Assembly: GCA_016787445.1 (NCBI GenBank) | Contig: JAEUTQ010000016.1 | Coordinates: 1 to 64,000 of the forward strand | DNA: 64,000 nucleotides | Direction of reading: 5' to 3' | Origin: Bacteroidia bacterium | GTDB lineage: Bacteria > Bacteroidota > Bacteroidia > B-17B0 > Aurantibacillaceae | In this document: positions 10,920-42,359 of the stretch, piece by piece | Layout: every line of letters starts with the position of its first letter | How positions within the stretch are numbered: the first letter of the stretch is position 1 | Made by a program: the position numbers and the translations under genes | The notes under the pieces: model-generated | Told to the model about the DNA's origin: nothing | What the model saw: only the letters and a program-made list of their open reading frames with translations | Database searches by the model: none

Positions 10920-11303
10920 ATGTCTCTTAAACCTTATAGTGCTATATTAATCGCAAGCGGCGTTTCCATTCTTTTGTCGGCAGCAATTAATATGTTGCCT
11001 TTTTCGGCTATTGTTTCTACAACATGGTGGATTAGTATCCTGTTTCATGTCGCAATTTCTCTTTTGCTTAATTTAATTATGCTGAAGAAAACCGAAGAGG
11101 CACGTGATATGATTAATAAAATCATGTTTACATCAATGGGACGATTATTGGTGTGTATGGTTGGTGTTTTTATTTACAGTCTCGTTGATAAACCACATTT
11201 CTTTGCTTTCGCTATTCACTTTATGTTGCACTATATGGTGTATACCGTTTTCGAAATCACTTTCATTGTTAAGTTTATTCGTTCACAGCAAACTAAACCT
11301 TAA
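10920..11303 (+). CDS. Four-helix membrane protein of the ATP synthase neighbourhood (unknown function)
   Basis: A 127-residue integral membrane protein with four hydrophobic segments (about residues 7-27, 34-55, 66-87 and 93-118) and a charged KKTEEARD loop. I recognise it as the small uncharacterised membrane gene commonly found between atpZ and atpB in Bacteroidota, which suggests a role related to F0, though this is inferred from context. It starts one base after the atpZ stop, so the two are cotranscribed. It is followed by DUF2452 instead of atpB. Confidence 0.65.
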   Translation: MSLKPYSAILIASGVSILLSAAINMLPFSAIVSTTWWISILFHVAISLLLNLIMLKKTEEARDMINKIMFTSMGRLLVCMVGVFIYSLVDKPHFFAFAIHFMLHYMVYTVFEITFIVKFIRSQQTKP

Positions 11304-11322
11304 TTCATTTGTTTAATCAATA

Positions 11323-11742
11323 ATGGAAAATCCAATTGATAAAGATAAGGTGGCAGAACAGCCGGGATTAATCGCATATCCGCATAATGTGGGAAGCTTG
11401 ATGATTAAACCGGAAGATGAAGGAAAATTAAAATCGCGTGCGATGTCGGCCATGCGCGAACAAACCAATATGCAATTGAAACAAATTCAAAAGCAGGTGC
11501 AATTACTCATGGAACAGGCCGGCCAAATTCAACGCAGGGTTGAGATTTCAGAAAAAATTTACCAGGCCGATATGTCTTTCGAGCCTTTTGTAGGGCATAC
11601 CTATTATTTATATAAAAAGGAAGATCATTACCGTTTAATGATGATCGGACCTGACGAATGGGGTAAATCTAAACCGGTTGACTTAGAATACGTTAGCTCC
11701 GCAAGGTTGCTCGCAGACCACACCTGGGATATATTTGACTAA
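11323..11742 (+). CDS. DUF2452 protein
   Basis: A 139-residue cytoplasmic protein of unknown function. It shows the DUF2452 pattern from end to end: NPIDKDKVAEQPGLIAYPH at the N-terminus, IKPEDEGKLKSRAMSAMREQT, a helical Gln-rich central part (QIQKQVQLLMEQAGQIQRRVEI), then FVGHTYYLY and a C-terminal PDEWGKSKP with LLADHTWDIFD. Length is normal. It follows the ATP-synthase accessory genes by 19 bp and precedes the LON-domain gene by 49 bp, so the three may form one transcript. Confidence 0.85.
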   Translation: MENPIDKDKVAEQPGLIAYPHNVGSLMIKPEDEGKLKSRAMSAMREQTNMQLKQIQKQVQLLMEQAGQIQRRVEISEKIYQADMSFEPFVGHTYYLYKKEDHYRLMMIGPDEWGKSKPVDLEYVSSARLLADHTWDIFD

Positions 11743-11791
11743 ACCTTTTGCACGGTTTTTGCGTCTTAGTATAGAAAGAAGGGAGGTTCAC

Positions 11792-12394
11792 ATGGCTATT
11801 AAACAATTAACCATACCAATGTTTCCACTTAATATGGTGGTGTTACCGGGCGAAACGGTAAAGCTGCATATTTATGAGGAACGCTACAAACAACTCATTA
11901 ATGATTGTTTGGAAAACGAAGCACATTTCGGCATACCGTTTTCGGTTAACGGAAAAATTAAAACGCATGGAGTGGAAGTAAAGATTAAAAAAGTGTTGAA
12001 GGTGGAAGAAAACGGTGAGATGGATATTTTGGTGGAAGGCGTGAATGTATTTAGCATTATGGATTATTCATCGCAACTAAAACCAAAATTATACGGTGCC
12101 GCTATTATTCAGTATAACGAAGAAGAGAAACTAACGGTGAGCACCTACCTGCAAGAACTCGCCATGGAGTACTTATCTTTAACGCAAAACAAAATTCTGG
12201 ACTACGACTCATTTAAAACAGCGAGCATATTTGATATTGCTAATTTGTTGCAATTATCAGCTAAAGAAAAGTATCAACTGATTTCACAAGATGATGTTAA
12301 CGAGAAGGAGAAATATCTCATCAATACTTTCCGTCAAACCATCTGCATTTTTGAGAAAGAAACTGAATTAAAAGACCGTTTCATTTTCAATTAA
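11792..12394 (+). CDS. LON N-terminal (substrate-binding) domain protein
   Basis: A 200-residue protein made only of the Lon N-terminal domain: QLTIPMFPLNMVVLPGETVKLHIYEERY, HFGIPF, VKIKKVLKVEENGEMDILVEG and then a helical part. It has no AAA ATPase or protease domain. Such stand-alone LON proteins are common in Bacteroidota; function is unknown, perhaps substrate recognition. I place the start at ATG 11792 because GGGAGG lies six bases upstream (11781-11786). That is a real Shine-Dalgarno sequence, unusual in this window. An in-frame start at 11735 would add 19 non-conserved residues and overlap DUF2452. A terminator follows at 12421. Confidence 0.87.
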   Translation: MAIKQLTIPMFPLNMVVLPGETVKLHIYEERYKQLINDCLENEAHFGIPFSVNGKIKTHGVEVKIKKVLKVEENGEMDILVEGVNVFSIMDYSSQLKPKLYGAAIIQYNEEEKLTVSTYLQELAMEYLSLTQNKILDYDSFKTASIFDIANLLQLSAKEKYQLISQDDVNEKEKYLINTFRQTICIFEKETELKDRFIFN

Positions 12395-27773: not shown

Positions 27774-29162
27774 CTAATTATTCTTCAAACTGATTTTCTC
27801 GTCACCTTGCTTGTATGGCATATATGTAAAGATGAATTGAAACATCTCTTCGGTGGTTTGCATACTTTCATTGCCTTCACCTTGTTCGATGGTACGCGGT
27901 GGATGAAATGGATTGAAAGGATTTTTATCCGTATTATCATAAGTGCCGTAAACATGAATCACCGAACCCTTCGGAATTTTTACAGGATTGTTATAGGTGT
28001 AATAATATTGCCAGCGGAAATCCCATTTGTTGATGCGCACTAAGCGGATGGTATCGCCTTGAGGAGGCAAAGCATAGGCCACAAAACTTTTTCCGATTAA
28101 GTGCATATGCGGATTCACCGACAGAATCGAAATATCATTTTGAATTTGCACTTGAGTATGAAAGTTTTTTATTTCATTAGGAGGAATAATCAATTTAGGT
28201 TCTATTTCAGAAATGCCGAATGTTCCCATTTGTGTTTCAAATACCGGTCGCTTAGGCGGAGTTTTGCGGAAGAAAATATTAATGTGACTGTTATCTTCCG
28301 TATCGATGTTAGATGGTCCGTAATGAATGTTCTTCAAAAAGAACACACCATTCTTAGGCAGACGGAATCCGCCGATGTCTTCTTTATACACGGGAGGAAT
28401 ATAACCCGGCAAATAATACACCACATTCCCGAGTAAGGCGGGCAGTGGAGGATTTTTTTTGTCGGTATACGTTAATCCCATTTTTGAATACGCATCGATG
28501 TAATTATTTAAAGCATCGGGTAAACTGTTTTCACCTTTCGTGTAATCGAATTCCCTGCTGTTATCATAACTGAGAAGGTGACCGTTGACGTGGTGCACGA
28601 GTTTTCTTTTGTCGGGCACAAATTCAACATACTGCACAAAAGTATCTTTCTCTAAGGCGAATGGATATTTCAGCATTAAAAAAGCATCAATGCCATTTCC
28701 TTTTATAGCTACAGGTTGAGGTAATTTTATAACCATATCCGGTTTTCCGAAGAAGGAACCTTCATGAAAGTTTGGTGCTTTTGGCTCTTTGAGTGAATCG
28801 CCGCACGGACAATTATCTTCCACCCAATTTTTGATTAATGCGATTTCTGTTTCGTTCAAAACGCGCTCGCCGTCGAAATGCGAATAGTTGGGATCTGCAG
28901 GCCATGGCGGCATGAATTTATTTTGTGTGGTGAATTTTATTTTGTTGGCATTGCGTTTGGCATCATCATAGTTCAATAAATCAAACATGCCTGATTCTCC
29001 GGGACGGTGACAAGGCGTGCAGTTTTTATAAATGATAGGCGCGATGTGTTCGCTCCAGGTTGGCTTATCTGTAATTTCTTCCGAAACTGTTTCAGAGGAA
29101 TTACATGAGAATAGCAGGAGCGAAGCAATAGCCGCGAATATTAGGATGGCGTAATGCTTCAT
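27774..29162 (-). CDS. Lipoprotein with heme c site and copper type II monooxygenase-like domain
   Basis: A 462-residue predicted lipoprotein (LLLFSC, Cys20). Residues about 35-115 form a cytochrome c-like domain with a CTPCH heme site at 48-52 and a downstream MPPWP that supplies a possible Met ligand. The rest, about 120-460, resembles the PHM/DBH copper type II ascorbate-dependent monooxygenase fold: KLVHHVNGHLL (two adjacent His) and NPHMHLIGKS (HxH). The reaction is not identified; a copper-bound oxidase-like role in the periplasm is inferred. Close relatives occur in many Bacteroidota and Acidobacteria, but most are uncharacterised. The gene is monocistronic and faces trmD. Confidence 0.8.
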   Translation of the reverse strand: MKHYAILIFAAIASLLLFSCNSSETVSEEITDKPTWSEHIAPIIYKNCTPCHRPGESGMFDLLNYDDAKRNANKIKFTTQNKFMPPWPADPNYSHFDGERVLNETEIALIKNWVEDNCPCGDSLKEPKAPNFHEGSFFGKPDMVIKLPQPVAIKGNGIDAFLMLKYPFALEKDTFVQYVEFVPDKRKLVHHVNGHLLSYDNSREFDYTKGENSLPDALNNYIDAYSKMGLTYTDKKNPPLPALLGNVVYYLPGYIPPVYKEDIGGFRLPKNGVFFLKNIHYGPSNIDTEDNSHINIFFRKTPPKRPVFETQMGTFGISEIEPKLIIPPNEIKNFHTQVQIQNDISILSVNPHMHLIGKSFVAYALPPQGDTIRLVRINKWDFRWQYYYTYNNPVKIPKGSVIHVYGTYDNTDKNPFNPFHPPRTIEQGEGNESMQTTEEMFQFIFTYMPYKQGDEKISLKNN

Positions 29163-30628: not shown

Positions 30629-31222
30629 CTAATAGTTGTAATACGGCGATATCATTAAATACACCACCACGCCTGTAATAGTTACATAAAGCCACAATGG
30701 ATAGCTGAAGCGGGTGAGTTTTTTGTGTTTTTCGCGCTGATCGGTGAGTCCGTAATAAAACGATAGCAATACCATTGGGAAAACGACAACAGCCAATAGA
30801 ATATGCGATAACAAAATAAATAAGTAAAGAGGTTTTATACCTGATACGGCGGCGGCTTCAGCAGCATCTAACATCCCGTTGTGATCTATGTCGCCGTATT
30901 TGGTATCCGGAATAAAATAGTGCGCAGTAACATAAGACACTAAAAAGAGAGAGCTCAGTACGAAAGCCGTTAAATTAATTTTGCGGTGTAAAGCAATGTT
31001 CTTTTTCTTAATGGCAATCAGTGAAAAAACCAACAATACAGAACAGGTCCCGTTAAAAATCGCGTTTAGCATTGGCAATTTGTAAATGTAAGAAGGGATT
31101 GTTTCAGGTGCAGGTAAAATTTTACGATTGAGAACAGTTACTGCTCCTAAAATTACAATGGTTGTAATCCAAACTACCACCTTAATGGTTTTATCGCTGG
31201 CGTTATTTAATGTTGTACTCAT
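30629..31222 (-). CDS. DUF420 membrane protein with EF-hand-like loop
   Basis: A 197-residue protein with five membrane segments and the DUF420 pattern: PMLNAIFNGTCSVLLVFSLIAIKKKNIALHRKINL, then YVTAHYF, LFILLSHILLAVVVFPMVLLSFYYGL and RFSYPLWLYVTITGVVVYLM. The family is near cytochrome oxidase assembly genes in other bacteria (CtaM-like). The extracellular loop holds DIDHNGMLDAAE at about residues 111-122, a 12-residue sequence that fits the EF-hand calcium loop exactly. It is placed one base after the hotdog protein, so it belongs to the same transcript. Why it follows the polyene-like genes is unclear. Confidence 0.82.
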   Translation of the reverse strand: MSTTLNNASDKTIKVVVWITTIVILGAVTVLNRKILPAPETIPSYIYKLPMLNAIFNGTCSVLLVFSLIAIKKKNIALHRKINLTAFVLSSLFLVSYVTAHYFIPDTKYGDIDHNGMLDAAEAAAVSGIKPLYLFILLSHILLAVVVFPMVLLSFYYGLTDQREKHKKLTRFSYPLWLYVTITGVVVYLMISPYYNY

Positions 31223-31223
31223 G

Positions 31224-31601
31224 TTAGTTTAATATTTTGTATTTGCCTTTGTGTTTTGTAAAAACTGTTTCTTCGAAAAATAATTTGGCATCCACTATAA
31301 AGCCCGTTTCGTTTTTAGTGTACGTCATCTCTAAATTAACATTTGGGTTTTTATCCGGTAAGATCATGCCGGTAAATTTGATGTTGTCTCCGTTGGTCAT
31401 CATCAAAGACGTTCCGCTTACTTCTTCCAATATATCTTTAATAATCTGCAACTGACAAACACCGGGCACAACAGGCATTTGCGGAAAGTGCCCTTTAAAT
31501 ACATCGTGCGCAGGATTGATAGAGATTAACGCTTTCACCGAATTGTCGGTTGAGCTTAATCCGCTAACTGTATAAAAAGTATTTTTTAATGCTGAACTCA
31601 T
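31224..31601 (-). CDS. FabZ/hotdog-fold 3-hydroxyacyl-ACP dehydratase-like protein
   Basis: A 125-residue hotdog protein. The FabZ hallmark is seen: NPAHDVFKGHFPQMPVVPGV with His38 in the catalytic position. The usual Glu of the PGVxxxE motif is Gln52 (PGVCQLQ), and I recall the same Gln in related proteins of flexirubin-type clusters, so it may be a family trait. It could still act as a dehydratase with altered chemistry or bind acyl-ACP. ATGA overlap with the upstream lipoprotein gene indicates coupling. It is the ninth gene of the polyene-like block. Confidence 0.8.
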   Translation of the reverse strand: MSSALKNTFYTVSGLSSTDNSVKALISINPAHDVFKGHFPQMPVVPGVCQLQIIKDILEEVSGTSLMMTNGDNIKFTGMILPDKNPNVNLEMTYTKNETGFIVDAKLFFEETVFTKHKGKYKILN

Positions 31602-32236
31602 TTGGTTTCTTCTATTTTAATGAGGTTAATTTTTAGTTTAACAAGGCCCTTGGTTTTGTAGTTTAAAAGGCTATAGTTCGTTTGATATTTTGTGGAAGAG
31701 TGTTTTTTATTTCCGGTAAATACTTGAGCCTTCTCTGCAAATGTAGTGGTCGGCTTTGGAATGGCAATACTACTGTTATGATCTTTTATCCAATAATAAT
31801 TTCCTTTTTTGTTTTCTTTTAATTCGCCTGTTTTTCCAATAGCGTTTATTAGTAGCATTTCGCGAAAGCTTTGTGTAAGCATGGCTACAAATTTGGGCTT
31901 ATTCAAGGCTTCAAACACAAAATCGGCTTTTACACTGTCACTCACAACAGAAAAATCAAACATACGCATGCCCAGTTCAGTTACAAAAACGATATGTGCT
32001 GTTTTTTCGTCGGTTTGTTTTAAAACAACAATGCCTGTAAAATGTTTAGTTAAAACATCAATTTCTGCCTTGTATTTTACGGATTGCTTGTTGGATGGAA
32101 TAACCGGCTGAATAACTTCGGAAGTTAATTGGATGGCTTGTAAATTTTTTCCGTTTTTTAATTTGTTGTAGGCACAAGAAGTGCTTAGCAGGATGATACT
32201 ACTTAACTGTAAAAATATTATTGGCCACCGTGCCAT
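31598..32236 (-). CDS. Lipoprotein of polyene-type cluster (LolB/DUF3261-like candidate)
   Basis: A 212-residue lipoprotein (signal MARWPIIFLQLSSIILLSTSC, Cys21). The mature part is a series of beta strands (YKAEIDVLTKHFTGIVVLKQ, AHIVFVTELGMRMFDFSV) followed by an alpha/beta C-terminus, similar in outline to the LolA/LolB fold. I suggest by position that it receives a lipid from the LolA-like protein at 32199, as DUF3261-type lipoproteins do in aryl polyene clusters. That is inference. The start lies 38 bp inside the LolA gene. A shorter start would break the signal peptide. Confidence 0.65.
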   Translation of the reverse strand: MARWPIIFLQLSSIILLSTSCAYNKLKNGKNLQAIQLTSEVIQPVIPSNKQSVKYKAEIDVLTKHFTGIVVLKQTDEKTAHIVFVTELGMRMFDFSVVSDSVKADFVFEALNKPKFVAMLTQSFREMLLINAIGKTGELKENKKGNYYWIKDHNSSIAIPKPTTTFAEKAQVFTGNKKHSSTKYQTNYSLLNYKTKGLVKLKINLIKIEETK

Positions 32237-32819
32237 TTAATTTTTTGTTGATGAATTCCAATGTGGTATAATCATCATTGGGCTCAATCATATCTAATTT
32301 AGACACCGAAGTTACGCTTTTATCAAAATACATGTTTATCTTTTTAAGGCTTTCTTTCATGTTTTTTTGAAGCGGGGTTAACTCGAGTTTGTAGTACTTT
32401 TCATTCTCAAAATAAGCCACTTTAAACTTTCCGGATTTAAAAATGTTGCCTTGTACGCAGGAAATCATAATATCATTGATTTCTTTAAATACTTTGTTGC
32501 TGTTCATGTCGTACTTAGCTGTCTTCTTCTCATCCTTTATCCATATCTTATCTTTATTAATCACAATTAAGTACTTGTAGGGTGTGCTATATTCCCAACG
32601 TAATAAATTCTCTTTTTTAAACACAAAATGACCTTTACTGAGTATTTTCTCCGACAACAAACTCAAATTCTTTTCTTGTGTAAAATCACTTTCAATGCTG
32701 TTTACCGTTTTACTCATTTGTTCCACTTTTAAACGTAAAGCAGCAGTGTCTTTAACTGTTTTAAAATTTTGAGCTAAACCAAAATGGGCAATGAATATTA
32801 AAAGAATTAATTTTTTCAT
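32199..32819 (-). CDS. LolA-like periplasmic lipid carrier
   Basis: A 206-residue periplasmic protein with signal peptide (MKKLILLIFIAHFGLAQ). It shows the LolA-like half-barrel: VNSIESDFTQEKNLSLLSEKILSKGHFVFKK, LLRWEYSTPYKYLIVINKDKIWI, then YYKLELTPLQK and DYTTLEFINKKLNG. In aryl polyene and flexirubin clusters a dedicated LolA is thought to move the product to the outer membrane. Its gene starts directly after the deacetylase stop, showing tight packing. Confidence 0.87.
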   Translation of the reverse strand: MKKLILLIFIAHFGLAQNFKTVKDTAALRLKVEQMSKTVNSIESDFTQEKNLSLLSEKILSKGHFVFKKENLLRWEYSTPYKYLIVINKDKIWIKDEKKTAKYDMNSNKVFKEINDIMISCVQGNIFKSGKFKVAYFENEKYYKLELTPLQKNMKESLKKINMYFDKSVTSVSKLDMIEPNDDYTTLEFINKKLNGTVANNIFTVK

Positions 32820-33569
32820 TTATGAAAGTGTAACAAATTCAAATTGACGTTCTTTTAAAGCAGGAATTAATTTATCTAAAAGTTCCGGCATTATGTTTAA
32901 ACGGTCGTGTAACAAAATTACTGAACCGTTTTTAGTTTGACTTAAAACTCTCTCTAAAATTTTGTTAAGGTCGGAGGTAGAAGTATCATAAGAACGTACG
33001 TTCCAGCCAATGGATGTTAAATTGAGTTTTTTTAGAACGTAGGCAAAATTAGGTGTAGTAACGCCATAGGGTGGACGAAATAATTTAGTGTCTTCACCGG
33101 TTACTTTTTTGATGCTATCAAGGCTTTGCTGAATGTCAGTTTCCAGTTTTTTAGCACTCCATAGGTCAATCCAAAAATGATGTGAGTAACTGTGAGAGCC
33201 AATAGAGTGACCTTCTTCCACTGTGCGTTTTAAGACAGATTCATTTCCTGTAATGTTTTTACCTATCACAAAAAAGGTGGCTTTTACTTGATGTTTTTTT
33301 AGTGTATCTAAAACGGCAAGTGTTTGCGGTGTACAAGGTCCGTCATCAAAGGTCAACGCAATTTGATTTTTTGTTTTATCCAGATGATTAACAGATTTCA
33401 AGTGAAAATTTAAACCAATAAAATAAGCACCTAAAAATTCTATTGTTAAATAAGCAAGGAGAAGAATGATTTGCCACAGGTAAAAGGCAGTGCTTCCAAT
33501 GGCGCACAACAAAAATACCAAGCCGATTGAAATAGCAAATAGCGCCGTTACAAACCGATGGTTTAGCAT
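32820..33569 (-). CDS. NodB-type polysaccharide deacetylase family protein
   Basis: A 249-residue protein with two N-terminal hydrophobic helices and a NodB domain. Key motifs: IALTFDDGPCTPQT (metal Asp), ATFFVIGKN, HSIGSHSYSHHFW (two metal His), LFRPPYGVTTPNF and ILLHDRLN. The active-site set is complete. Deacetylases of this kind recur in flexirubin-type clusters, where the substrate is unknown. It overlaps the upstream CLF-like gene by 7 bp. Confidence 0.88.
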   Translation of the reverse strand: MLNHRFVTALFAISIGLVFLLCAIGSTAFYLWQIILLLAYLTIEFLGAYFIGLNFHLKSVNHLDKTKNQIALTFDDGPCTPQTLAVLDTLKKHQVKATFFVIGKNITGNESVLKRTVEEGHSIGSHSYSHHFWIDLWSAKKLETDIQQSLDSIKKVTGEDTKLFRPPYGVTTPNFAYVLKKLNLTSIGWNVRSYDTSTSDLNKILERVLSQTKNGSVILLHDRLNIMPELLDKLIPALKERQFEFVTLS

Positions 33570-34621
33570 TGTCTTAATAAGGTGAAAGAATAATTAATGC
33601 CCAAATACGCATTAATAATCAAGATGCTTTTAATGCTTGTTTTGGTGTGATGATTGATACGGATAGTATGAGGAATTTCTTGCTTACGAATAATTTTATC
33701 AGCTAACCAGGTGGCAAATGCACCGGCCGTATGATAATCACCGCATAAATGTTTATAATGAGCTGTTGCGGAATGATTCGAAACTAAAGGAAGCAATTCA
33801 AGAAGATAATTATCGAAGTCGGAGTCACCTGAAAAACCAAATAAAACGAGATCTATATTATCAAGCGCCGTATTTTGTGAATCAAGAAACTGATTGATTT
33901 TATCTAAAACTTCTTTTGACGATTTTGGTTTGTATAAAAAGCTAATGCCGTCAATAGATGATTGTGCATTTTGTTTTTCGGAAGACACTACAAAGAAAGC
34001 AGAGCCTTCTCCCATTTGAATGCCGTGTGTTTTACCTTCAAATAAAGGATGCGTTGTATCCGTGTTAAATTTTTTAGCTTGGCGGTTAAGTTCAACAAAT
34101 AATGGAGTGTGTTCTTCGATACCGCCAATTAAAATATTTTTCTTGCCCTCATTTAAACTTAACAATGCATCCATCACAGAGCTTTCAAATGAAAATCCAC
34201 GATGCGTATACGTATAATTATACTCGTGACATTTCATAATCAGCGCTACTTGCGAACCAACGGTGTTGTGTGTTGATTGAATAAATGAAGTAGGGGTGAG
34301 GAACTGTTCGTCGTTATTTAAAATCGCAAGTAGAAATTTTTCACTGTCTTCAAAGCAACCTAATCCTGTACCTGACATAATCGCATCTACGTTGTCCAAC
34401 TTTGCCTCTGTCATGGCCATCCGGGCGGCAGAAGCTCCCATTTTAATGGCGCGTCCCATGCGGCGCAGCATATTCGGATTGATGTGTTCTTTATACGAAG
34501 GTTCAATAGCCGGAAAGTGATCGCCATTCGGACCAATTATGGTTTCAAAAAAGTAGTTTTCATCCGTGGTGTTTTGCGGAGAAATGCAACCTGTTCCTAT
34601 GATATAAGCTTTGGCTGCCAT
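33563..34621 (-). CDS. Ketosynthase-like protein lacking the active-site Cys (CLF-like)
   Basis: A 352-residue thiolase-fold protein. I start at the ATG at 34621, which overlaps the TAA of the ketosynthase gene; a longer in-frame start would run 30 bp into that gene. The N-terminus (AYIIGTGCISPQNT) and FIQSTHNTVGSQVALIMK are KS-like. However, the expected ACSS nucleophile segment reads THRGFSFESS, with Phe143 at the Cys position, and HGTGTP is lost, though GDYHTAGA keeps a His. It is thus probably a chain-length-factor-like partner of the ketosynthase at 34621-35814. Known aryl polyene synthases use such a KS-CLF pair. Confidence 0.8.
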   Translation of the reverse strand: MAAKAYIIGTGCISPQNTTDENYFFETIIGPNGDHFPAIEPSYKEHINPNMLRRMGRAIKMGASAARMAMTEAKLDNVDAIMSGTGLGCFEDSEKFLLAILNNDEQFLTPTSFIQSTHNTVGSQVALIMKCHEYNYTYTHRGFSFESSVMDALLSLNEGKKNILIGGIEEHTPLFVELNRQAKKFNTDTTHPLFEGKTHGIQMGEGSAFFVVSSEKQNAQSSIDGISFLYKPKSSKEVLDKINQFLDSQNTALDNIDLVLFGFSGDSDFDNYLLELLPLVSNHSATAHYKHLCGDYHTAGAFATWLADKIIRKQEIPHTIRINHHTKTSIKSILIINAYLGINYSFTLLRQC

Positions 34622-35814
34622 TATACTCTTGAAAAGATTAAAGATGAACAATTACCACCAAACCCGAATGAATTGGAAAGTACATGATTCATTCTGTGCG
34701 AAGTTACCTGTGTAACCGGACTAAGTCCGAATTCAGCAATAGGTGTGGTGAAATTAAGGTTGGGAAATATTTTATCATTCAGTATCGACAGAATAGATAT
34801 AACGGCTTCTACCCCTGCGGCAGGTGCTAAGGTATGTCCGGTATAAGCTTTTGTAGAACTGAATTTAGGAACATTGTTACCAAAAATATTAACGGTAGCT
34901 TTGCTTTCCGATTGATCATTGTTTGGCGTACCTGTACCATGCATATTGATGTAATCAATTTGCGCAGGGGATAAGCCACTCATTTTTAATGCTTGTTGTA
35001 TAGCCATGGTAGCGCCAAATCCGTCGGGAGATGAAGCTGTTTGATGATAGGCGTCATTAGCGTTAGCATAACCGGCAACAGTTGCCAGTGCTTTTCCGTT
35101 TCTCCTTTTAAGAGAAGCTTCACTTTCGATAACAATAAAGGCGCCGGCTTCACCGAGATTCAAGCCTCTGCGATTTTCATCAAAAGGCTTGCACCATTCT
35201 TTATCCAGAATCATTAAGGTGTTAAAACCGTTGAAGGTAAACTTGGATAAGGCATCTACACCTCCAACAATCACGCGGTCCAACATGCCTTGTTTTATCA
35301 TTCTGCTTCCAAGCATCACTGCATTGGCAGCTGAAGAGCAAGCTGTAGAGATCGTTGTCACAAAATCTTTTACGCCTAAATAATCGGCAATTTCTTCTGT
35401 ACTCTCACCGCAATCATGCGCGTCTAAAACTTCCAGATGCAAAGACTTATCGACCATTTCTTTGTAAAACAATTCTGTTTTACACATTCCGGCTACAGTA
35501 GTAGATGAAATTAATCCGGTACGCATACCGTCATTTAAATCAATGCCTGAATGTTTTAAAGCTTCACTTGCCGCAGCAATGCCAAGCATGGAAGTACGGT
35601 TTAATGCTGGAGATTTAAAACGGATATAATCCATTAAATCGTTATTGGAAAGTTTTATTTCACCGGCAACAAATTCGTCTTTGTAACGCGTGTTTAAATG
35701 GTGGATTTTCCCAATACCGCTTTTAGCATTAGATAAGTTTGCATAAGCTTCCTGCACATTGTTGCCAATGGCCGAAATCATGCCAAGTCCGCTTATAAAA
35801 ATGGGTGACGACAA
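34621..35814 (-). CDS. Beta-ketoacyl-ACP synthase (full catalytic triad)
   Basis: A 397-residue FabF-type condensing enzyme. The triad is intact: Cys159 in TISTACSSAAN, His292 in MHGTGTPNND and His327 in KAYTGHTLAPAAG with Lys322. The glycine-rich end NSFGFGGNCSSL is present. It would extend acyl chains on the ACP encoded just upstream at 35815-36072; its ATG is directly next to the ACP stop. Likely the elongating KS that pairs with the CLF-like protein downstream. Specificity is unknown. Confidence 0.92.
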   Translation of the reverse strand: MSSPIFISGLGMISAIGNNVQEAYANLSNAKSGIGKIHHLNTRYKDEFVAGEIKLSNNDLMDYIRFKSPALNRTSMLGIAAASEALKHSGIDLNDGMRTGLISSTTVAGMCKTELFYKEMVDKSLHLEVLDAHDCGESTEEIADYLGVKDFVTTISTACSSAANAVMLGSRMIKQGMLDRVIVGGVDALSKFTFNGFNTLMILDKEWCKPFDENRRGLNLGEAGAFIVIESEASLKRRNGKALATVAGYANANDAYHQTASSPDGFGATMAIQQALKMSGLSPAQIDYINMHGTGTPNNDQSESKATVNIFGNNVPKFSSTKAYTGHTLAPAAGVEAVISILSILNDKIFPNLNFTTPIAEFGLSPVTQVTSHRMNHVLSNSFGFGGNCSSLIFSRV

Positions 35815-36072
35815 TTAAGATTTACCTTGTGATTTAATAAATTCTGCCATTGTACGAACTGATTCGAAAATCTTTTTGCCATCGGCAGGATTTTGAATCT
35901 TAATCGCATAATGCTTTTCAAGTAATACGATTAATTCCAAGGCATCGATAGAATCCAAACCTAGTCCGTCACCAAATAATGGTGAATCAGGATTAATGTC
36001 TTCCGGTTTTACTTCAGCTAAATTTAGCTGTTCGATAATCTGCACTTTTAATTTTTCTATTAATACGTCCAT
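35815..36072 (-). CDS. Acyl carrier protein
   Basis: An 85-residue acidic ACP. The phosphopantetheine site is Ser41 in GLGLDSIDALEL; helices I-IV are of normal length (IEKLKVQIIEQLNL, SIDALELIVLLEKHY, VRTMAEFIKS). The DSI variant of the DSL motif is seen in secondary-metabolite ACPs. It lies between the half-length KS-like gene (3 bp away) and the ketosynthase (0 bp), so it is the dedicated carrier of this cluster. No phosphopantetheinyl transferase is in the window. Confidence 0.93.
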   Translation of the reverse strand: MDVLIEKLKVQIIEQLNLAEVKPEDINPDSPLFGDGLGLDSIDALELIVLLEKHYAIKIQNPADGKKIFESVRTMAEFIKSQGKS

Positions 36073-36075
36073 AAT

Positions 36076-36708
36076 TTATTGATAAAGTTGTTTAAGTAGT
36101 TCCTCGTTAAGTGGCTTAAAATTAAGTTTTTTTATTGAATCGTCAGCTATTTCGGTTAAATAAATGAGAGCGTCCATGTGACCGTTATCAAAATCAACCC
36201 ATCCCGAAATAACAGCTGAAACCTCGCTTTGTTTAAGCATGAGGTTGTTTTGTTGTAACATTAGGTTTGTATTGAATGAAGGCTCAACGAAAAAAGCATT
36301 CTCGCCGGTAATTTTGTGTTTGATGGCAATTTCACCAATCACGATATTAGGAAGCGTATATACAAAGACTGAAGGCGAAGGAAGATACTTTTCCTTATCT
36401 GATATACTTTGTTGGTGAACACGGTCGGTTTCCAGGCTGGAGGCTTTATTGGCCATCAAAATGCCGATTTTATCAAGGGTATGTCTTTCTAAAAAACCTG
36501 AGTTTTGCAGGGCAGCTTCTGTCGCTAATAAGCCTAACTTACATAGGCCGTCCATTTTGTGAAACTTAGGATAATTGAGTCCTAATATTTTATAGGTTTC
36601 TGCCAGAAAAAACGCAGCAGAGTCTTGTTTAGCTAACTGAATAGATTTTCCGTTAACGATCAAGGCGTTGTTTTTAATGCGGCAATATGAACTGATTACA
36701 ATTTCCAT
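36076..36708 (-). CDS. Half-length ketosynthase-like protein
   Basis: A 210-residue protein that looks like only the N-terminal thiolase half of a KS. It begins MEIVISSYCRIKNN and contains LLATEAALQNSGFL, DKIGILMANKASSLETD, SPSVFVYTLPNIVIGEIAIKHKITGEN and VISGWVDFDNGHMDALI. Where a catalytic Cys would lie the sequence reads FFVEPSFNT, and no HGTGTP or GH motif follows. It ends naturally with a stop. The start chosen (36708) overlaps the TAA of the upstream ketosynthase. A structural or regulatory partner is likely; truncation is probably ancient because such short KS-like genes recur in flexirubin-like clusters (recalled, not checked). Confidence 0.7.
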   Translation of the reverse strand: MEIVISSYCRIKNNALIVNGKSIQLAKQDSAAFFLAETYKILGLNYPKFHKMDGLCKLGLLATEAALQNSGFLERHTLDKIGILMANKASSLETDRVHQQSISDKEKYLPSPSVFVYTLPNIVIGEIAIKHKITGENAFFVEPSFNTNLMLQQNNLMLKQSEVSAVISGWVDFDNGHMDALIYLTEIADDSIKKLNFKPLNEELLKQLYQ

Positions 36709-37847
36709 TACAATTTGGCAAATAAGGCTGCGGCATTGCATCCTCCAAAGCCTGAAGCTGTTTTTAGTACCGTATTGATAGTTGTTTTTTTGTGTTCGTT
36801 AATGACCGAAATTTTACCGCTTACACCATGCTCAGAAAAACCGGCCGATTTGATTAATTGATTATGGTGCGCGGCCTCTAAAGCTATAACTGTTTCTAAT
36901 ACACCGGCAGCGCCAAGTGTATGTCCGTAGTAACCCTTTAAACTATTTACCGGAACACGAGTTAAGCCAGCTCTTTCAAATGCGATCGACTCCATTTCAT
37001 CATTATAAGGAGTAGCAGTGCCGTGGGCGTTAATTGTATCGGGTAAAATATGCTTGTGTTTTGAAAATGTATTTTCAATGGCTTGTAATAATCCGTCGCC
37101 GTTACGGGAAGGTCCAGAAATGTGATTCGCGTCGTTGGCTGATGCGCCATTTAAAATGTGTGTAGAGCTTTCGCTTAGTAATGATTTGTTTTTTGTAATT
37201 AAAATAGTTGATACGGCCTCCCCTAAATTAATTCCATCGCGACGGGCATCAAATGGTTTGCATAAATTAGTACTGAGGGCGTTGAATGATTTAAATCCGC
37301 TTACAGTAAATTCAGTTACTAAATCGCCGCCACATACAATGATATTTTCATAAAGTCCTTCTGCTATCATGCGCTTAGCAATAATAATAGCTAAAAGTCC
37401 GCTGATGCAAGCGTTAGAAATAACTAAAGGAATATTCGTCGCTCCAAAATAATTTCCAATCGCTTCAGTCATTTTACTCAAGTATGCACGCTCTTTGGAA
37501 ACAGGCGGTTTGTTGTATTCCAATAAATCAACATTTCCTTTAGTGGTAGAATAAATGAGTAGGGTGTTTTTTTCCTTCAGTGAAATTCCGGATTGATTTA
37601 AAACATCCTGAATAGAAAGAATACTAAGTGATTCTAATTTTGTAAATCCGGATTCAATACCGGCTTTGACTGCGTACTCTTTTATTTTTTCTTCCTGAAT
37701 AGTTGCCAAACAAAACAAGTCGTTTAGTTTTCCAAACGACTTGTTTTGAATGCCTGACTGATTATTTAATAGGGCAGAGTAATTGTCTTTAGTGGTAAAC
37801 CCTAAAGGCGAAATAATGTTATTATATGAAGTGAAAACTTCAGGCAA
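36708..37847 (-). CDS. Beta-ketoacyl-ACP synthase, first gene of the polyene-type block
   Basis: A 379-residue condensing enzyme. Cys147 in ISNACISGLLA, His275 in NAHGTATPYND, Lys304 and His309 in LKGYYGHTLGAAG make up a complete triad; the ending ASGFGGCNAA is typical. The N-terminus is atypical of FabF (MPEVFTSYNNIISPLGFT), suggesting a specialised starter or priming KS. It opens a run of ten minus-strand genes. The crotonase gene lies 13 bp upstream of it on the same strand, so transcription could begin there. Confidence 0.9.
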   Translation of the reverse strand: MPEVFTSYNNIISPLGFTTKDNYSALLNNQSGIQNKSFGKLNDLFCLATIQEEKIKEYAVKAGIESGFTKLESLSILSIQDVLNQSGISLKEKNTLLIYSTTKGNVDLLEYNKPPVSKERAYLSKMTEAIGNYFGATNIPLVISNACISGLLAIIIAKRMIAEGLYENIIVCGGDLVTEFTVSGFKSFNALSTNLCKPFDARRDGINLGEAVSTILITKNKSLLSESSTHILNGASANDANHISGPSRNGDGLLQAIENTFSKHKHILPDTINAHGTATPYNDEMESIAFERAGLTRVPVNSLKGYYGHTLGAAGVLETVIALEAAHHNQLIKSAGFSEHGVSGKISVINEHKKTTINTVLKTASGFGGCNAAALFAKL

Positions 37848-37860
37848 TTTTATTTAGCAC

Positions 37861-38649
37861 TTAGTTACCTTGAAAATTTGCCTTACGTTTATCTAAGAAT
37901 GCGGATACACCTTCTTTAAAATCGCCGGTACCGAAGCTCTTACCGAATTCTTCAATTTCAACTTCGTAACCATTTTGCTTATTGTTGTAACCTGCATTAA
38001 TAACTTTAATGGCCGTTTTAATAGCGGTTGGTGATTTAGAAGAAATTTTTGAAGTAATATCAAAACATTTGTTCAATAATTCTTCTTGTGTGGTCACATA
38101 GTTTACAAGTCCCCATTTGTAAGCGTCTTGCGCATTAATCATATCTGCGGTAACAATCATTTCGAATGCTTTTCCTTTGCCGATGATTTGAGCTAAACGT
38201 TGTGTTCCGCCGTATCCGGGAATAACACCTAAACTTACTTCCGGTAAACCCATTTTTGCGTTATCACTCGCCACACGAATGTGACAAGCTAAAGCTAATT
38301 CTAAACCTCCGCCTAATGCAAATCCGTTAACGGCTGCAATTACGGGCTTAGAATAATTTTCAATGAAATTAAATATTTTGAAATGTCCGGTAGAACTTAA
38401 TTGTTTTCCTTGTTCAATAGAATAGTTTGCAAATTCAGCAATATCCGCACCCGCAACAAATGCTTTATTACCTGAGCCGGTAATAATTACTGCGCGAATA
38501 TCTTTTTGGTTTTCTGCTTCCACCAAGGTTTCATGCAATTCTTCAATGGTGGTTTTATTTAATGCATTTAACTTATCGGGTCTGTTAATAGTAATAACCA
38601 AAACATTGTTTTTTATTTCGGTTAAAACGCTTTCTCCTGTCATAATCAT
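37861..38649 (-). CDS. Enoyl-CoA hydratase/isomerase family (crotonase)
   Basis: A 262-residue crotonase. Motifs: VLVITINRPDKLNALN, KAFVAGADIAEF (oxyanion loop), VNGFALGGGLELALACHIRVAS with the first catalytic Glu, and LPEVSLGVIPGYGGTQRLAQIIG with the second. Both Glu are retained, so it should hydrate 2-enoyl-CoA in fatty acid or amino acid breakdown. Start at the first ATG (38649) or at the third codon (38643) cannot be distinguished. It is 13 bp ahead of the polyene-type block, yet it acts on CoA esters, so a functional link is doubtful. Confidence 0.92.
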   Translation of the reverse strand: MIMTGESVLTEIKNNVLVITINRPDKLNALNKTTIEELHETLVEAENQKDIRAVIITGSGNKAFVAGADIAEFANYSIEQGKQLSSTGHFKIFNFIENYSKPVIAAVNGFALGGGLELALACHIRVASDNAKMGLPEVSLGVIPGYGGTQRLAQIIGKGKAFEMIVTADMINAQDAYKWGLVNYVTTQEELLNKCFDITSKISSKSPTAIKTAIKVINAGYNNKQNGYEVEIEEFGKSFGTGDFKEGVSAFLDKRKANFQGN

Positions 38650-38720: not shown

Positions 38721-41700
38721 TTATTGTAATTTCTTGAATGTTAATGTGAAGGTAGTGCCCTCATTTACTACACTTTCGAAAACTATATCGCCATTAAATG
38801 ATAGCATGATGTTTTTTACCATTGCTAAACCTAAACCGGTACCTGTTGATTTAGTTGTGAAATTAGGCGTGAAAATTTTATGTTGCAAGTCTTCCGCAAT
38901 TCCGGTTCCGTTATCTTTAATTTTTACACGCACCAAATCATTTACTTCTTCCATGGTGACTTCAATCTTTCCTTCTCTTCCGTCGGGAATAGATTGCAGC
39001 GCGTTTTTTAGTAAATTATTAAATACGCGTAAGCACTGATTCTTGTCGGCGAGTACTTTAATTGAATCGGAAGTTGTAGCGAAGTTAATTTGTGTACCAT
39101 GATTGTTTTTAAAAAGTTCTATGGTAGAACGAATGCTCTCCGCTAAATTAACTTCTTCCAGATTAGCTTTAGGTAATTTGGCAAAATTGGAAAATTCATT
39201 GGCAATATGCGCTAAGGTGTCAATTTGTTCAATGATGGAATCCGACATTTTTTTAAAACGCGCACTAAAATCAACACCACCGTCATTTACAATTTTCTGA
39301 AGGTATTGTAAATTTAATTTCATTGGGGTTAATGGATTTTTTATTTCATGGGCCACTTGCTTCGCCATTTCCTGCCATGCACCTTCACGTTCGGATTTCG
39401 CTAGCAAACTAGCGCTTCCTTCGAGCTTTAATAGCATCTTGTTGTATTCATTAACAAGTCTTCCAATCTCATCATTGGATTGCCAATTGATGGCTTCATT
39501 TTTCTTGCCAAAAGAAATTTTCGCTAATTGTTCTTGTAATATTCTTAAGGGTTTGGTAACGTACGCCGATACAATTAATCCGGCAAACAAGCTCACTAAA
39601 AACAATACAACATAGATATTTATTAAGGTAGTAATATAATCAGAAACACCTTCTTCCACGTCTTTTTGACGCGAGAAATAAGGAAGGTTCATATAGCCTG
39701 TGAGTTTTTTATTGGAATCGTAAAGAGCCGTGTAAAGTGAAAGATAATTTAAACTGCCGGTTTTGTCGCGTGTAATAAAATATTGCGATTTGTTTTCTTT
39801 AAAATGTAAAATGGCTTTCGGACTAATCAAGCCTGAGCTTAGGCCCGAATTAAATAATTGTGGACGGGAAGACGCGAACAGCAATCCGTTTTTGTTATAC
39901 AACGAAATATCCGAATTAAAGAGCGCTGCATATTTTTGTAAAACAGTTTCGGTAAATTGTTTACTGTTTACATCAATGGCTTTATTGTAAAGCAACACAC
40001 TGTTTAACTCGTTCTGTAATTGTGAAGCTTTCTCAATCAATAATCGGCTTTGCTCGTCCTCAGATTTTTTAATAACTAAGTTCACGGTAAATACCCCAAC
40101 GGCACACAATGCTAAAAATAAGAAGCCAACTACAAATAGCTGAATACGGCGGTTTAAAGTAAAAAATCCGTTTTCTTTATTGCTGAACACGTAATAAAAT
40201 GTAAATAATACAATTCCCAGCAACGAATAGAAAAGAAAATAGTAAGAATTGGCGGTGAAGTAATAATTAAAGCCTTTGTTTTTATAACTAACAACTAATT
40301 GAGTTTCTTTATCCGGTACAGTAAGCTGATGACTGTATTCATTGGTATTTTGTTCTAATACTTCTTTCCCAAAATGATGGGGATAAATATAGTTACCATA
40401 AGCAGAACTTAGAACGCCGTTTTTATAAATGGCATAGGAGAATTGTTTATAACGGCTTTGTTTTTGCTGAGGTTCATCTAATAATAATTCTGAAAAATTA
40501 CCTCCGCTTGTGAACTGTTTTGGTTCAAGTTGAACATAGAGGGAGTAGGCAGCTCTACCGCCGGTGATGTTGTTTCTTAAGTCAATTTTACCAATGTAAC
40601 GCGAATTCTTTTTATACTCGGGAATAAAATAAAGGTCTTCGCAAATCGTAGGTTCACCGGTTTTTATTTGTTCATCAAAGTAATCGTGATTGTTTAATTG
40701 GTAATCCGTATTTTTCAAATAAGGCATGCAAAGCGAATCGAACACACTAAGTTCAATATTGTATTTTTCGAAGTATTTCGTAAAGTATAGTTGTCTGAGA
40801 AGTTGCTCAGTTTCGTTGTTTTGTAAGGGTAAACGACGAATCGCTTTATGTAAGGAAGAATCTTTTTTGATTTTGGACGCTACTTTTAAAAACTCACTTT
40901 CTAAAAAGGCGTCTTGTCGGTCACTTAATTTTTCTGATAAGTGATTCAGACTTTGTTTTTCACTGATGGTATTATATTCGCCAAAAATCCATGCCGTAAT
41001 AATAGCAAAAGCTAAAACCCTGAATCCCGCACTCAAAATGCTTTCTGTGTAATTGTATTTTCTGAAAGCAATAGAAATAAAAACCAATAAGGGTAGCCAA
41101 AACCACTCTACAGCACTAAAGTTTTGCTTTGCGATAACCGCAAATGCAATACTGTATAATAACAAGGAAACGGTAAGTGCCAGTAGTCCGTCTTTTTTAT
41201 TTTCCTCAAATAATAATTTCACTAATTTCTCAATTAGCAACATGATTGTAAATCCATTTACAAAAACAATGGCGAGGCATAGGAAGCTAAGTGGAGATAA
41301 GTTAAAGATTCCCGAGAAATCGAGGGGGATTGTGGAGTTGAAAACGAGATTTTTTACGGTAGAATTTAATTGAAGCGATAAAAATATCAATACTAGCAAA
41401 TAGACACTGAGTCCGCCCCATTTAATAGCGGCGCTATCGATTTTCGGATTGAAATGCCGGAGAAAAACAACCGACCAAACAAAAAACACGATAACGTTAA
41501 TGATAATATCTCCGAGATAGCGGTTGTAAAACGAATCAGTAATACCATAAACACCTACGTCATATAAAGAAGACGTGTATAAATGAGAAGGAAATTCAAA
41601 ATAAACCATCAAACTTCTTAAAACCAGAAGTAAAAGACTACCCACTGCTAATTGTTTGATGCTTATTTTGTTTTTAAAACTATACTGAATGAGACTTAAG

Positions 41701-42359
41701 CTTAATATTAAAATTCCTGCAAAAAACAACAGGCTAGGTAATGAAGATGTGGCCGCTAAACTATTTTCACTTTTATCTATACTGAATAATGCTTTCTTGT
41801 TTGCAGTTGCGATTGTGCGCTCTGATTTTACATTTAAATTTAACTTGCAGTCCTCGCTTAAATTTAACCAGCTAACAAATCCATTTTTGAAATAACTGTT
41901 TTGAACGTCGTATTCTTTGGAAATGAAAAGTAACCCGAACAATTTAAGATTTTTGATTTGTCGCAATTGATAATAGTACCACCCGTTTCTAAGGTGCAAC
42001 ATCCCCTCTTTATCTTTTAAGTCACGCAAACTTTGGTCAACCGGTGCTAAGTTGGATGTCCATAATTTTAAAGAGTCATTACGGTAAGCCAATAAAACTA
42101 TTTCTTCTTTATCTAAATAATTGCTTTCGCCCAATAAGTTTTCGTTAAAGCCGGGATCATTATTCGCTAATTGAGTTTCCAGCCAACTCATGGATTCGGT
42201 TACGCGCTTTTCTTTTAAGCTGAAGTTTTTTTGAGCCTGGTTAACTGAATCGTTGACTGAACCGGATTGTAGATGAAAACAAACTGAAGCAGCAATCATA
42301 AGAAACAGTGCCGCAATCAAACTGAAGTTTGTATGAACTTTTCCGGTCATTTTACTCAA
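38721..42359 (-). CDS. Large NtrY-like sensor histidine kinase
   Basis: A 1212-residue membrane kinase. An N-terminal helix and a sensory region of about 150 residues are followed by some eight helices (about 200-450), a second periplasmic region, another helix pair (about 700-950), then a HAMP-type linker (VTKPLRILQEQLAKISFG). The kinase core is complete: H-box EMAKQVAHEIKNPLTPMKLN with the phosphorylated His near 1000, N-box FNNLLKNALQSIP, G1 IKDNGTGI and G2 TGTGLGLAMVKNI. NtrY-like kinases sense nitrogen or redox state in other bacteria; the ligand here is unknown. No response regulator lies next to it. Confidence 0.88.
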   Translation of the reverse strand: MSKMTGKVHTNFSLIAALFLMIAASVCFHLQSGSVNDSVNQAQKNFSLKEKRVTESMSWLETQLANNDPGFNENLLGESNYLDKEEIVLLAYRNDSLKLWTSNLAPVDQSLRDLKDKEGMLHLRNGWYYYQLRQIKNLKLFGLLFISKEYDVQNSYFKNGFVSWLNLSEDCKLNLNVKSERTIATANKKALFSIDKSENSLAATSSLPSLLFFAGILILSLSLIQYSFKNKISIKQLAVGSLLLLVLRSLMVYFEFPSHLYTSSLYDVGVYGITDSFYNRYLGDIIINVIVFFVWSVVFLRHFNPKIDSAAIKWGGLSVYLLVLIFLSLQLNSTVKNLVFNSTIPLDFSGIFNLSPLSFLCLAIVFVNGFTIMLLIEKLVKLLFEENKKDGLLALTVSLLLYSIAFAVIAKQNFSAVEWFWLPLLVFISIAFRKYNYTESILSAGFRVLAFAIITAWIFGEYNTISEKQSLNHLSEKLSDRQDAFLESEFLKVASKIKKDSSLHKAIRRLPLQNNETEQLLRQLYFTKYFEKYNIELSVFDSLCMPYLKNTDYQLNNHDYFDEQIKTGEPTICEDLYFIPEYKKNSRYIGKIDLRNNITGGRAAYSLYVQLEPKQFTSGGNFSELLLDEPQQKQSRYKQFSYAIYKNGVLSSAYGNYIYPHHFGKEVLEQNTNEYSHQLTVPDKETQLVVSYKNKGFNYYFTANSYYFLFYSLLGIVLFTFYYVFSNKENGFFTLNRRIQLFVVGFLFLALCAVGVFTVNLVIKKSEDEQSRLLIEKASQLQNELNSVLLYNKAIDVNSKQFTETVLQKYAALFNSDISLYNKNGLLFASSRPQLFNSGLSSGLISPKAILHFKENKSQYFITRDKTGSLNYLSLYTALYDSNKKLTGYMNLPYFSRQKDVEEGVSDYITTLINIYVVLFLVSLFAGLIVSAYVTKPLRILQEQLAKISFGKKNEAINWQSNDEIGRLVNEYNKMLLKLEGSASLLAKSEREGAWQEMAKQVAHEIKNPLTPMKLNLQYLQKIVNDGGVDFSARFKKMSDSIIEQIDTLAHIANEFSNFAKLPKANLEEVNLAESIRSTIELFKNNHGTQINFATTSDSIKVLADKNQCLRVFNNLLKNALQSIPDGREGKIEVTMEEVNDLVRVKIKDNGTGIAEDLQHKIFTPNFTTKSTGTGLGLAMVKNIMLSFNGDIVFESVVNEGTTFTLTFKKLQ

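Follow-up and report, generated by a model that had tools for sequence, protein, structure and literature searches.

We examined a run of ten closely coupled genes at positions 30629-37847 in a 64,000-nucleotide stretch of DNA from an uncultured Bacteroidia genome (the window, bases 1-64000 of the 122,655-bp contig C18; the genome, G000, comprises 3.77 Mb in 83 contigs and is reported as 100% complete). With high confidence, we assign this run as the polyene-elongation and delivery module of the flexirubin pathway plus a DUF420 neighbour, with the rest of the pathway encoded in about seven other places in the genome. Flexirubin is an orange outer-membrane pigment of Bacteroidota. The function of the genes is the ordinary flexirubin function, and the lineage is unusual only in the break-up of a normally single cluster: the pathway was retained while its cluster came apart.

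A sequence-only reading of the window had described the run as an aryl polyene or flexirubin-like cluster that lacks the customary genes for tailoring and export, and had offered two alternatives: genes split over the genome, or a different product. For the contig this description holds, as BLAST with pathway proteins and a full reading of the remaining sequence found no ketoreductase, ammonia-lyase, acyltransferase or MMPL partner on the rest of it. For the genome it does not, as a search beyond the contig located the partners; of the two alternatives, the split is the right one.

The flexirubin gene set of the genome

The genome carries a flexirubin-type gene set: FlxA, FlxY, a flx-type ketosynthase-chain length factor (KS-CLF) pair with acyl carrier protein (ACP), DarA and DarB, LolA2 and LolB2, and a flx-type MMPL exporter/acyltransferase (Table 1). 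In the window, LolA2 and LolB2 both pass flexirubin-specific NCBIfam models, which bears out the family named in the sequence-only reading. On contig C79, a block encoding FlxJ, the tyrosine ammonia-lyase FlxA, the reductase FlxB, a KS, an ACP and an LpxL-like acyltransferase includes FlxA at 830.8 bits against NF053541 (cut-off 700) and FlxB over the cut-off of a flexirubin-type model, with FlxJ narrowly below its family cut-off (527 vs 560). Both DarB copies exceed the cut-off of NF053539, DarG and DarH exceed curated cut-offs as well, and DarA is 57% identical to the copy in G056, a relative with most pathway genes in one cluster. The Dar, FlxY, dehydratase, thioesterase and glycosyltransferase genes were located with a DarB query and a joined query (DarA, FlxY, dehydratase, thioesterase, glycosyltransferase) taken from the clusters of other genomes.

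Orthologues of the MMPL fusion on C6 (47-48% identity) lie inside the clusters of G056 and a second relative, G015, directly downstream of the operon and after the glycosyltransferase gene. Two other MMPL proteins considered as the exporter (open frames of 763 and 804 aa on C58 and C64) have no flexirubin neighbours and were rejected in favour of this orthologue of the cluster exporter. A FadD-like ligase beside FlxJ on C79 was set aside as the coumarate ligase after FlxY was found on C3. This FadD-like gene (L053:7061-8833) adjoins FlxJ-FlxA and is kept in the genus (G007, G006, G002), not in G012. DarB is present twice in G000 and in G007, a close relative, but once in other relatives; the second copy in G000 (L269:5400-7951; C21:15.4-17.9 kb) stands beside DarG, DarH and a cut-off gene resembling flavin adenine dinucleotide (FAD) oxidoreductases.

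The dispersed genes behave as one set. Among 60 genomes from many families, this one included, LolA2 and FlxA occur together in 18 with one discordant genome each way (p = 4e-13), and LolA2, FlxA, KS1, MMPL and DarB are all present in 16 and all absent from 37, with pairwise p-values of 3e-9 to 4e-13 from Fisher tests that ignore shared ancestry. These counts bear on the alternative that the product is an aryl polyene lipid without a dialkylresorcinol half, as made by the aryl polyene (APE) clusters of Proteobacteria, and that the Dar genes serve some other product. Taken alone, the window module has no resorcinol gene, and KS1-CLF and the hotdog proteins do resemble ApeO-ApeC and ApeI. However, the genome encodes DarA, two DarB proteins and flexirubin-type DarG and DarH, and, among the 19 genomes with LolA2, 18 have DarB alongside the flx genes. 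The proteobacterial pattern, in which synthesis starts from 4-hydroxybenzoate and neither ammonia-lyase nor dar genes are present, does not describe a genome with FlxA and Dar, and we regard this alternative as improbable.

The dispersed genes are also under purifying selection. Ratios of nonsynonymous to synonymous substitution rates (dN/dS) between G000 and G007 lie in the range 0.006-0.17 for every gene of the module, for the C79 genes tested and for MMPL. That the window genes are the leftover of a decayed cluster whose pathway no longer works might be suggested by their isolation from the rest of the cluster and by two KS-like proteins, the half-size ketosynthase (half-KS) and the CLF, that lack catalytic residues. 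Yet every reading frame is intact, dN/dS is far below 1 even for these two proteins, their counterparts in the flexirubin loci examined elsewhere lack the same residues, and the dispersed pieces are kept together across genomes; decay is very unlikely.

A maximum-likelihood tree of 65 sequences, including the FabF of G000 and that of E. coli, places KS1, KS2, KS3 and CLF each in a single fully supported clade (100/99 or better; 100/100 for KS2). All are apart from FabF, with which the sequence-only reading had allowed that they might group. In the KS1 and CLF clades the genes of this family group together, a pattern that fits vertical inheritance.

The analysis shows which genes are present, their families and catalytic residues, and their co-occurrence, constraint and synteny; the product, its transport and the pairing of enzymes with elongation steps are inferred. 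FlxA would convert tyrosine to 4-coumarate and FlxY would activate it, reactions shown biochemically for Chitinophaga pinensis (4-coumarate by FlxA, coumaroyl-CoA by FlxY; PMC3992019). The KS/CLF enzymes and ACPs would then elongate the starter with malonyl units, with FlxB reducing and the hotdog proteins FlxF and FlxS dehydrating the chain to give the aryl polyene, and FlxJ would methylate the ring. DarA and DarB would build the dialkylresorcinol; the two halves may be joined by DarH, an acyltransferase of the BtrH type, or by another enzyme. The MMPL fusion, LolA2 and LolB2 are predicted to carry the pigment or a precursor to the outer membrane; delivery by LolA2/LolB2 is likewise an inference in the literature (PMC11885536).

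Organisation of the window module

The ten genes of the run, all on the minus strand, are confirmed as the sequence-only reading gave them, with spacings between called open reading frames (ORFs) of -38 to +3 bp. TAATG junctions join KS2 to half-KS and KS1 to CLF, and, judged from alignments, the true starts of half-KS and CLF are likely the ATGs at 36708 and 34621, within the TAATG shared with the KS2 and KS1 stops, the called ORF starts lying upstream. The lolA2 and lolB2 frames share 38 bp, and many relatives in the family have an overlap of this length. Other genomes of the genus and loci across Bacteroidota repeat the gene order, so that chance is far from explaining the arrangement. The CLF aligns with KS1 at 96% probability (hhalign) and has Phe at the active-site Cys position of E. 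coli FabF. Of 65 named loci of full length, 61 contain the deacetylase.

Table 1. Genes of the module in the window (positions in the 64,000-nucleotide stretch) and pathway genes elsewhere in G000 (contig handles)
Feature	Location	Strand	Evidence or remark
DUF420 membrane protein	30629..31222	-	PF04238
FabZ/ApeI-like hotdog protein, FlxS-like dehydratase	31224..31601	-	PF07977; PDB matches 3esi, 6qsr
LolB2, outer-membrane lipoprotein of flexirubin loci	31598..32236	-	NF053540 (LolB2_flexi) 81.3 bits (cut-off 60)
LolA2, periplasmic carrier specific to flexirubin loci	32199..32819	-	NF053544 (LolA2_flexi) 222.9 bits (cut-off 125)
NodB-type polysaccharide deacetylase, FlxP-like	32820..33569	-	PF01522
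CLF, FlxO-like	33563..34651	-	Best PDB sequence match 6qsp_B ApeC (weak, E 0.013)
KS1, FlxN/ApeO-like ketosynthase, 397 aa	34621..35814	-	Catalytic residues intact; PDB matches include 6qsp_A ApeO; tree
ACP1, FlxM-like	35815..36072	-	PF00550; NCBIfam PRK09184 78.4 bits (cut-off 70)
Half-KS, FlxL-like	36076..36741	-	Partial Pfam ketoacyl-synt match; alignments; AlphaFold model
KS2, FlxI-like ketosynthase, 379 aa	36708..37847	-	Pfam KS domains; Cys-His-Lys-His intact (aligned to E. coli FabF); tree
Crotonase, enoyl-CoA hydratase family by sequence reading	37861..38649	-	13 bp upstream of KS2, co-oriented
FlxJ methyltransferase-FlxA-FlxB-FlxC-FlxD-FlxE	C79:75.5-81.4 kb		Reached via the genome's KS genes
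DarA-DarB-FlxF-like dehydratase, then two ATP-binding cassette (ABC) genes	C79:50.3-54.9 kb
DarB2-DarG-DarH	C21
FlxY ligase	C3		NF053551 721.4 bits (cut-off 520)
FlxT-like glycosyltransferase	C19		50% identity to gene of another family's cluster
Candidate thioesterase	C49		51% identity to gene of another family's cluster
MMPL-acyltransferase-methyltransferase fusion, 1281 aa	C6		Reached via MMPL search

Two genes at the edges depart from the list given by the sequence-only reading. DUF420, which it had counted with the cluster, is present in 56 of the 60 related genomes, including those without flexirubin genes, and is therefore a co-located housekeeping-type neighbour; we reject it as a pathway member. 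The crotonase gene, which it had omitted, may be a co-transcribed operon member in this genus only. This gene and one for a 1212-aa protein resembling sensor histidine kinases (38721-42359) stand directly upstream of the module, co-oriented and in an order kept in the genus. Downstream, 27774-29162 appears to encode a lipoprotein-like protein that combines a cytochrome-like motif of the CxxC type with a C-terminal part resembling monooxygenases. Promoter and terminator scans gave background level.

Break-up of the cluster and its stages in relatives

The flexirubin pathway genes of G000 are spread over about eight places, the window module included, and the one- or two-cluster organisation of the described flexirubin cases is not found; that organisation is a trait of layout and not a functional requirement. 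The same dispersal is visible in G007, a very close relative assembled in six contigs. There, contig 1 (1.84 Mb) carries FlxY at 0.03, the module at 0.18, FlxA at 0.83, DarA-DarB at 0.855, the thioesterase at 1.08 and the glycosyltransferase at 1.55 Mb, and contig 5 carries MMPL and the second DarB. As G000 is a draft in 83 contigs, the separation might be thought an assembly or binning artefact that hides one cluster on the real chromosome. However, the module is interior to its 122.7-kb contig, the MMPL and FlxA-E pieces are interior to others, the layout of G007 repeats the separation within and between contigs, and independent genomes of the genus and family show the same split, so that an artefact is extremely unlikely.

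Most relatives (Flavobacterium, Chitinophaga and others) hold much of the pathway in one stretch. Around the half-KS gene of the 65 loci, a thioesterase lies within about 10 kb in 61, an MMPL homologue in 52 and DarB in 45; L183, which matches G002 from the genus of G000, and L185 have none of the three nearby. Related genera show stages between these extremes. Most pathway genes form one cluster in G056 and G057 (FlxY on another contig in G056), and G015 still groups the genes for acyltransferase, dehydratase, thioesterase, KS module, glycosyltransferase and MMPL, while its FlxA lies on a different contig. In the genus of G000 the KS-to-hotdog run is on its own. A further separation is seen in genera g6 and g7 (L061, L066, L067, L069), where lolA2-lolB2-hotdog-DUF420 is apart even from the KS genes, and G026 has lolA2-lolB2-DUF420 with no called hotdog gene.

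Several points weigh against the assignment as a flexirubin pathway in pieces. The genome is a draft, although most pieces are contig-interior and equally separate in G007. Three genes are assigned on moderate identity to the cluster of another family: the glycosyltransferase (50%), the thioesterase (51%) and the FlxF-like dehydratase (41%). Of these the thioesterase is the weakest assignment, because thioesterases of that kind are common. The stretches of G000 that were compared contain no counterpart of the FAD-dependent oxidoreductase that ends the cluster in G056 (L058:15974-17488), no genome-wide search having been made.

Literature searches turned up no description of a flexirubin pathway in scattered pieces, which does not prove that none exists. 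Cluster-based genome mining that needs neighbouring genes would be expected to call the pathway of this lineage incomplete or to miss it. With its intermediate stages in related genera, the lineage offers a natural example of a specialised-metabolite cluster that was dismantled but kept as a near-complete, constrained gene set, and so bears on what holds such clusters together.

The half-KS and known systems

The half-KS aligns to the first half of the KS fold and lacks the C-terminal half. At the catalytic position the window protein lacks a Cys, and none is conserved there across 30 homologues (aligned lengths 176-221 aa). Its AlphaFold model (predicted local distance difference test, pLDDT, 86) matches KS and CLF folds, with template modelling (TM) scores of 0.49-0.52 against the half-size CLF 6qsp_B and 0.49-0.54 against the 198-residue chain 7f28_C. 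Judged by this model and by its lost residues, the half-KS appears to resemble the half-size CLF of aryl polyene synthases, which keeps just one thiolase domain (PMC8358021). A sequence search with the half-KS returned no ApeC match, and profile comparison gave nothing convincing with KS1 and 46% probability with the CLF.

By gene order the half-KS is probably FlxL, counted among five proposed ketosynthases (PMC3992019), and its lack of catalytic residues marks a specific gap in the flexirubin scheme. We tentatively suggest, as an idea somewhat short of an even chance, that flexirubin synthases use two KS-CLF heterodimers flanking the ACP gene, one of KS1 with the full-length CLF and one of KS2 with the half-KS as an ApeC-like half-size CLF. 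If so, the half-KS would act as a structural or chain-length subunit and would not count among those five ketosynthases. Across 53 loci, distance correlation did not single out KS2 (partial correlation with the half-KS 0.44 for KS1, 0.33 for KS2, 0.28 for CLF). One Bacteroidales bin has a second KS1-CLF pair within 12 kb of sequence (pairs at L188:1063-2213 and 10945-12155, one near a FlxY homologue), possibly a duplicated elongation unit.

The APE clusters of Gammaproteobacteria (E. coli CFT073, Xenorhabdus doucetiae; PMC8253772, PMC8358021) share with G000 KS-CLF, ACPs, an ApeI-type hotdog protein, LolA-like and LolB-like proteins and an MMPL-type exporter, the last lying elsewhere in the genome in G000. 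Unlike them, G000 has Dar genes, a tyrosine ammonia-lyase start where APE synthesis uses 4-hydroxybenzoate, a full-length CLF plus a half-size KS-like protein, and a NodB deacetylase. As in the LolA2/LolB2 systems of Bacteroidota (PMC11885536), both window proteins pass the corresponding NCBIfam models; that study reports lolA2/lolB2 as always within the flexirubin locus, whereas genera g6 and g7 hold lolA2-lolB2-hotdog-DUF420 apart from the other flx genes.

Described flexirubin loci comprise one 37-kb cluster in Flavobacterium johnsoniae and flxA-flxY plus dar in C. pinensis (PMC3992019). The gene set of G000 equals that of these clusters, and the order KS, half-KS, ACP, KS, CLF, deacetylase, LolA, LolB, hotdog is common to the window, L260 (F. 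johnsoniae) and L196 (a metagenome-assembled genome titled C. pinensis). In contrast to both, the KS-to-hotdog run stands alone here, and FlxA-E, Dar, FlxY, MMPL, glycosyltransferase and thioesterase lie in about seven other places.

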